Shown here: positions 11,188 through 54,670 of the stretch, one piece after another
Layout of the letters: the number at the start of each line of letters is the position of its first letter
Position numbering within the stretch: position 1 is the first letter of the stretch
Origin: Aquirufa aurantiipilula
GTDB lineage: Bacteria > Bacteroidota > Bacteroidia > Cytophagales > Spirosomataceae
DNA: 64,000 nucleotides
Direction: 5' to 3'
NCBI RefSeq assembly: GCF_019923745.1
Contig: NZ_JAANOG010000004.1
Span: 124,001 to 188,000, forward strand
Program-made: the position numbers and the translations under genes
Notes under the pieces: model-generated
Told to the model about the DNA's origin: nothing
What the model saw: only the letters and a program-made list of their open reading frames with translations
Database searches by the model: none

Positions 11188-11195
11188 TACCTTTG
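11188..11195 (+). promoter_or_regulatory. -7 promoter element ahead of the cobalamin riboswitch
   Basis: TACCTTTG is a perfect match to TAnnTTTG. It puts transcription start near 11201, immediately before the riboswitch. No convincing -33 TTG is visible at the expected distance. Confidence 0.5.
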
Positions 11196-11202
11196 GCATT
11201 AG

Positions 11203-11372
11203 ATAAGGGTGTGTAATCTTTTCTAAAAGATTGTCACTTAATAGGGAATTTGGTTTAAGCCAAAACTGTCCCCGCAACTGTAAGTTTTTGTAAAAACATT
11301 TATCCATCAAAAGCCACTGGAATTTCTGGGAAGGCAGATAAATGATGAAAACGAGTCAGGAGACCTGCCTTT
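11203..11372 (+). ncRNA. Cobalamin (B12) riboswitch
   Basis: The aptamer carries the conserved parts in order: an upstream GGGAA (11244-11248), the core ACTGTCCCCGCAACTGTAA around 11265-11283, the B12 box GCCACTGG at 11313-11320, GGGAAGGCAG, and the closing GAGTCAGGAGACCTGCC at about 11353-11369. It binds adenosyl- or other cobalamins and shuts off the downstream gene when B12 is plentiful. The gene it controls is a BtuB-like receptor, which fits. Confidence 0.93.
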
Positions 11373-11440
11373 TTCAATTCTTGATGTCGCATTACGGAGG
11401 ATGAGACGAGATCGAGCGTTCGAGTATTTTTTAAATTTTA

Positions 11441-54308: not shown

Positions 54309-54324
54309 ATGCATAATAAATATG

Positions 54325-54360
54325 AAAATAGCCTCAAATATCATTTGAGGCTATTTTTTT
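54325..54360 (+). terminator. Terminator of the M28 peptidase gene
   Basis: A perfect 15-bp stem (54325-54339 with 54343-54357) with a three-base loop and a run of T residues. Confidence 0.85.
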
Positions 54361-54511
54361 TTGATGTGTTATCAATATGTCAATGCATGAAAAAGGTAGG
54401 TCGTATTCAAGTATTGACAAATTTTTCTTTATTTCATTAACAATGTTGGAATAATACTTTTCATCGTGTTTCTTTTTTTTCATAAAAAAAATAAAAAAAA
54501 ACAGAAGAAAT

Positions 54512-54670
54512 AAGGTTAATCCTAAGACGAATTCTGCTTCGCAGAATCGATTTTCTCTCCGCTTACGGCTTAAATCTTTGACGCTTTCGCACATTTCCAA
54601 TGCGCAAGGTCAAATATCCGCCTGCCGCTTCGCTCAAGCTCCGTTCAAATCTTTCGTTGGGATTAACCTT
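54512..54670. repeat. Structured element with 11-bp terminal inverted repeats
   Basis: AAGGTTAATCC (54512-54522) and GGATTAACCTT (54660-54670) are exact inverted repeats about 137 bases apart. Inside are a 7-bp hairpin with a 3-base loop (54531-54547) and a long hairpin (TTTGAC and CTTTCGCA at 54577-54591 with TGCGCAAG and GTCAAA at 54601-54614). The GC content is higher than its AT-rich flank. It looks like a miniature mobile element or a structured RNA. Confidence 0.6.

Follow-up and report, generated by a model that had tools for sequence, protein, structure and literature searches.

The interiors of miniature inverted-repeat elements (MITEs) are generally regarded as filler. MITEs are typically under 500 bp long (PMC10969869), and among other intergenic repeats of bacteria the REP/BIMEs of the GTAG and CGTC families are palindromes that build up mosaic arrays (PMC3733652). 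Here we describe a folded sequence of Aquirufa aurantiipilula, module A, which is very probably the internal hairpin block of non-autonomous, MITE-like elements of about 0.5-0.9 kb that derive from the IS3 family and belong to one Aquirufa clade. A search of the open-access literature for Aquirufa and repeats returned no published account of these elements.

The window, by which we mean the whole stretch of 64,000 nucleotides that was analysed, carries module A at 54512-54670, in an AT-rich spacer between what we take to be an M28-family peptidase gene (end 54308) and a convergent, presumably DUF4954-like gene (stop codon 54694). The module is bounded by exact 11-bp inverted repeats, AAGGTTAATCC (54512-54522) and GGATTAACCTT (54660-54670), and contains the hairpins ATTCTGC-TTC-GCAGAAT and TTTGACGC...GCAAGGTCAAA. 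Compared with dinucleotide shuffles, 54512-54670 folds well both as RNA with its flanks (z = -2.65) and as DNA (z = -4.21, with 1 of 200 shuffles equally good). An earlier note on this DNA had described exact inverted ends, strong internal folding and an AT-rich spacer that no ORF explains, and on all of these points it was right. The sole ORF of at least 80 aa overlapping the module encodes 88 aa on the minus strand from a TTG start, and none of the ORFs of that size makes a plausible gene here; a coding role was rejected because the ORFs vary among copies, with stops and indels (alignments judged by eye). When the window was scanned against Rfam, no family matched at 54512-54670, and no promoter above chance was found at the element. 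The only Rfam match in the window is a cobalamin riboswitch at 11190-11386 (102.6 bits). The parts of module A are:

54512-54670, plus strand: module A, a hairpin unit with an 11-bp closing stem (repeats, folding and copy alignments)
54512-54522, plus strand: 5' arm of the closing stem (pairs kept at 98% in 68 copies)
54531-54547, plus strand: hairpin 1, ATTCTGC-TTC-GCAGAAT (both bases of a pair changed, C-G to T-A, in 19 of 68 copies)
54577-54614, plus strand: hairpin 3, TTTGAC...GTCAAA with an inner stem (outer stem near-invariant across A and B)
54660-54670, plus strand: 3' arm of the closing stem (exact complement of the 5' arm; pair counts in copies)

Roughly 70 arrays containing this module were mapped in six Aquirufa species. 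Copy alignments revealed a second module, B, that has the interior of A but unrelated and still self-complementary ends: A reads GGTTAATCC...GGATTAACC and is about 159 bp long, and B reads GTCGTTCAGC...GCTGAACGAC and is 147 bp long. A palindrome, P (GGYATTTCTTTTTTT..AAAAAAAGAAA), precedes each of A and B, and in the usual block, P-A-B-P, the two modules lie tail to tail over a degenerate 7-base-repeat spacer, and heads face one another over C segments of roughly 70-110 bp, which comprise some 20 end types, many of them common to unrelated loci. The full element runs from a left end (TGT..CCTGAtATAGGTTGAC) through C, P, A, the heptad-repeat spacer, inverted B, P and C to the right end. P-A by itself, the form present in the window, is frequent among the arrays, and no B was seen among them without A or an A fragment nearby. 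Intact P occurs 9-54 times in each of five tested carriers; five non-carrier genomes gave none, as did a reversed control pattern. The idea that the C segments are integron-like cassettes was dropped, as the outer ones run into IS3-type ends. Degenerate repeats of 7-base period (TAGAATG, TTTATAA, TTAGTTA) also stand in many other Aquirufa spacers, even where a genome lacks the A/B elements, and serve as insertion sites for IS3-type elements (L009 2140-2345; L014 3150-3240; L048, L049, L051).

This architecture changes how the 11-bp repeats are to be read. The earlier note took them for the ends of a miniature element, but they form the closing stem of an internal hairpin, a stem whose sequence is wholly different in B. 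Copies are alike well beyond these repeats, with P on one side, and B keeps the same interior between different ends. Since the inverted ends form the foot of a hairpin rather than the termini of a transposon, the 159-bp unit on its own is no MITE. The mobile, MITE-like origin that the note had suggested is supported by many copies, outer IS3-type ends and insertion polymorphism.

The transposon ends lie outside A and B and are of IS3 type (TGTCTTGTCCTGATATAGGTTGACA), with TG...CA as their outer limits. Of 65 arrays, 21 have inward-pointing ends of this type no more than 250 bp away, compared with 45 of 14,974 random placements (0.3%). A recognisable end is present on both sides of 5 of the 65 arrays, most others being truncated or without IS ends. 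Complete elements include L012 (G000, 795 bp), L090 (G020), L063 (two in tandem, G033) and, in A. beregesia (G024), L188 and L194. These last two, 895 bp long and 99.33% identical end to end with A and B inside, are bounded by TG...CA and sit at unrelated loci, with different neighbour genes and diverging sequence outside; the only ORF in them is one of 64 aa, and a transposase gene is absent. Ends of the TGTCTTGTCCTGATATAGGTTGACA type lie at both sides of L188/L194, of L012 and of L191, a single-P form without A or B. At MoxR-thyA, the spacer that holds L194, four of five relatives (G000, G020, G033 and G016) have only a short sequence free of the element, and A. rosea (G005) has an unrelated IS-end remnant. 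Similarly, the hemE spacer has an array in G020 and G024 and is empty in G033, G005 and G016, with a contig break at this place in G000.

A possible source of transposase is L189 (G020), a complete IS of about 1.3 kb whose OrfB matches rve (E = 5.7e-26) and whose right end is TGTCCCGTCCTGAAAAAAGTAGACA. Its left end is 92-95% identical to the outer right end of L188/L191 over about 115 bp and 76% identical to the L063 end over 96 bp. A complete IS3-family element and the gene-less elements thus agree in their ends and have about 97-115 bp of subterminal sequence in common, the stretch shared with the left end of L189 ranging from 25 to 115 bp when L188/L194, L012 and L191 are all considered. 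A second IS3-family IS, L070 (HTH_Tnp_1 and rve), is inserted into one array with a TTA duplication. As for target-site duplications of the gene-less elements, which the earlier note had proposed to look for, a plausible 3-bp TTC flanks the outer ends of L191, but none was seen at L012, L188 or L194. Judged by their sequences, the complete copies appear to agree with IS3-derived MITEs in every respect that could be compared, except for consistent target duplications.

With these ends in hand, the window copy can be followed to the left of module A:

54378-54402, plus strand: decayed IS3-type left terminal repeat, TGTCAATGCATGAAAAAGGTAGGTC (BLAST to the left end of the L070 IS)
54403-54467, plus strand: subterminal segment C, type 3 (recurs in copies at other loci)
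54468-54494, plus strand: degenerate T/A palindrome P, consensus GGYATTTCTTTTTTT..AAAAAAAGAAATRCC (copy alignments)
54495-54511, plus strand: A-rich linker joining P to A (copy alignments)

The BLAST match begins at 54378 and at base 1 of the complete L070 IS (5881) and is 78% over 36 nt, and over the 25 bases of the terminal repeat the identity with the IS end is 80%; the copy has no right end. The earlier coordinates, 54512-54670, thus delimit the hairpin module correctly but not the mobile element, which starts further left, at about 54378. The type-3 C segment also stands in the left flanks of copies such as L062, L067, L079, L080 and L101, and in clusters 2 and 6. At the same locus, A. 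ecclesiirivi (G033) has the element too, with TATCAATGCCTGAAATAGTTTGGTC as its counterpart of 54378-54402 and with the inner part replaced by heptad sequence; in A. nivalisilvae (G020) the left end and some of C remain, with P-A gone; and A. beregesia (G024), A. rosea (G005) and G016 have short spacers from which the element is absent. The window copy looks like an old remnant in which C, P, A and the left end survive but the spacer, B, the right end and a second P have probably been lost. The simplest history would be a single old insertion followed by decay, with P-A apparently lost later in A. nivalisilvae.

Further copies, which the earlier note had proposed to search for, are numerous within a narrow range, and the outcome that the note named as refuting it, with neither copies nor conservation elsewhere, did not arise. 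The host genome (3.08 Mb in 70 contigs) has 16 matches, and 5 of 36 other Aquirufa genomes carry the module with 6-19 matches each, whereas none of 22 genomes from other genera of the same order does. Those that carry it are most closely related to the host, their flanking protein being 94-98% identical compared with at most 89% in the others. A degenerate pattern searched in 84,980 species gave 33 hits, all in Aquirufa (A. beregesia, A. nivalisilvae, A. ecclesiirivi and A. rosea) except for one Cytophagaceae MAG, and the viral contigs, plasmids and phages searched gave no match. In each of the six carrier species, A/B arrays occupy the spacer at a YgiQ-like radical SAM gene, with copy number and order differing each time (L064 3650-6002; L009 12343-13296; L092 9967-10925; L088 4829-5943; L071 4830-5668; L096 10826-11024), and at the TerC locus (L158-L162, L013), one orthologous spacer, arrays are reversed or have other C segments between species. 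Other repeats are also present in these genomes: a palindromic repeat, TTCGACATGACCCTnnGGAACATGTCGAA, in several spacers (L077 5945-6000; L082 5320-5440; L086 5460-5530); another, GTTGGCTTCGAGAGCCTCAGCCAAC, adjoining arrays and spacers (L064 4240-4400; L069; L161); and tandem fragments resembling the 3' part of a tRNA (GGCCCCAGCGGGAATCGAGTCG...) beside an apparent tRNA gene (L166; L010 2900-3100).

Whether the fold is maintained was assessed by mutual information between column pairs and by pair counts, those for A covering 68 copies; RNAalifold alone missed two covarying helices, both of which mutual information detected. In A, 97.5% of cells are paired, and three helices contain pairs in which both partners have changed in compensation, namely 24/33 (19 copies), 42/138 (30 copies) and 53/127 (24 copies). 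They amount to 74 double-changed cells, compared with 32 in shuffles and at most 6 in slid controls, and in B to 38 cells at five pairs, compared with 13 in shuffles, although the shuffle comparison overstates significance because the copies are related. The covariance that the earlier note had proposed to look for is therefore present. The minimum-energy DNA fold of the window copy agrees with the covariation-supported structure, and paired columns are less variable than unpaired ones. The compensatory changes in these alignments show that the folds of A and B are being preserved, as DNA or as RNA. In one B copy (L066 5492-5622), the left arm is now the exact complement of the right arm (GTCGTACAGCCCTGCG/CGCAGGGCTGTACGAC), which suggests that one arm may have been corrected by the other via hairpin templating.

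The structured non-coding RNA suggested in the earlier note would be a small RNA or cis element with a selected fold, the transposon explaining its spread only; the double changes (three well-supported pairs in A, one in each of three helices, and five in B), the restraint on paired columns, and the closing stems of A and B, unrelated yet self-complementary, are all what this reading expects. A DNA hairpin would yield the same covariation signal. On the plus strand, A-C departures outnumber G-T (62 and 30 sequences; 25 and 17 distinct types, p = 0.28), so that the G-T excess to be expected of an RNA transcribed from this strand is lacking; these counts fit both a DNA hairpin and a minus-strand RNA. 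With no Rfam match at the element, a promoter not above chance, similarity confined to one clade of one genus, and copies in convergent, divergent and tandem spacers alike, we consider a functional RNA improbable. Placement also bears on a role as a bidirectional terminator or insulator between genes, since convergent and divergent spacers are over-represented relative to tandem ones (24 convergent, 17 divergent and 15 tandem for arrays; 75, 68 and 291 for pairs of adjacent genes from those stretches). A regulatory role would explain this bias no better than would insertions being tolerated where they fall outside operons. A T-rich tract does follow the fold on the minus strand, but it begins more than 10 bases past the stem and not directly at it, and a simple terminator was rejected for this distance. 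Moreover, the upstream gene carries its own terminator (54324-54358) and related species do without the element at this site, making such a role very unlikely.

One argument against the IS3-derived reading comes from the interior: A and B occur with several end types, and P-A-B-P could be independently mobile and have entered a number of MITEs. It might be a mobile repeat of second order, or one like REP/BIMEs, that enters a MITE at P and duplicates P, IS3-type elements only carrying it. The single-P MITE L191 agrees with L188 on either side, and its only P can be aligned with each of the two in L188; A and B form heterodimers of alternating orientation, as REP dimers do (PMC3733652); and one core is carried by several end types. 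Yet the L191 alignment would be expected equally from recombination of two palindromic Ps, no A-B block was found without P or C context, and in the flanks of about 1.5 kb around the Y1_Tnp genes found, A, B and P are all missing. A Y1/RAYT enzyme as mobiliser was accordingly rejected, there being a single or few such genes, none adjoining A, B or P, and none found in the carrier G005. A measures 159 bp, compared with 20-40 bp for REPs. We regard this form of the idea as rather unlikely. A variant to which we give somewhat more room, though still as a doubtful one, sees P-A-B-P as hyperparasitic: two covarying hairpins would insert into the central palindromes of different IS3-type MITEs, or be swapped between them, and their fold as single-stranded DNA or RNA would take part in the copying or recombination of arrays; one folded core would then travel with many different transposon ends.

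For the IS3-derived elements that we favour, we propose that the OrfAB transposase of an autonomous IS3-family IS recognises the TG...CA ends and would move the gene-less element in trans, and that recombination between P palindromes could delete, invert or swap the inner block. Such P-P recombination may account for the single-P copies, the reversed arrays at one orthologous locus and the exchanged C segments. These elements would add an IS3-derived MITE family to a common freshwater Bacteroidota genus. It is unusual for the interior of a MITE, besides its ends, to be held as a precise fold by compensatory changes, because such interiors are usually taken as filler. Two types of closing stem, palindromic junctions and exchangeable outer segments make the modular evolution of a non-autonomous element testable.

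Among described systems, REP/BIMEs look similar in being palindromic and intergenic, in alternating orientation, and in forming mosaic arrays with head-to-head and tail-to-tail heterodimers (GTAG and CGTC families, PMC3733652). The Aquirufa element is nevertheless not a REP/BIME, given its size and lack of RAYT association: A (about 159 bp) and B (147 bp) contrast with a GTAG- or CGTC-tagged palindrome of 20-40 bp, and the Aquirufa unit is bounded by IS3-type ends. A MITE of Porphyromonas gingivalis with an internal minisatellite (PMC4596501) is comparable, going by its description, as a Bacteroidetes MITE with internal repeats. The closest likeness is to IS3-family IS and MITE derivatives, with which the element shares TG...CA ends, terminal repeats of about 25 bp, a partner with OrfA and OrfB (rve), the absence of a transposase gene of its own, intergenic AT-rich targets and frequent truncated copies. 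It departs from usual MITEs in measuring 0.5-0.9 kb when complete, compared with typically less than 500 bp (PMC10969869), and in holding a conserved pair of folded modules and internal T/A palindromes, a core common to several end types.
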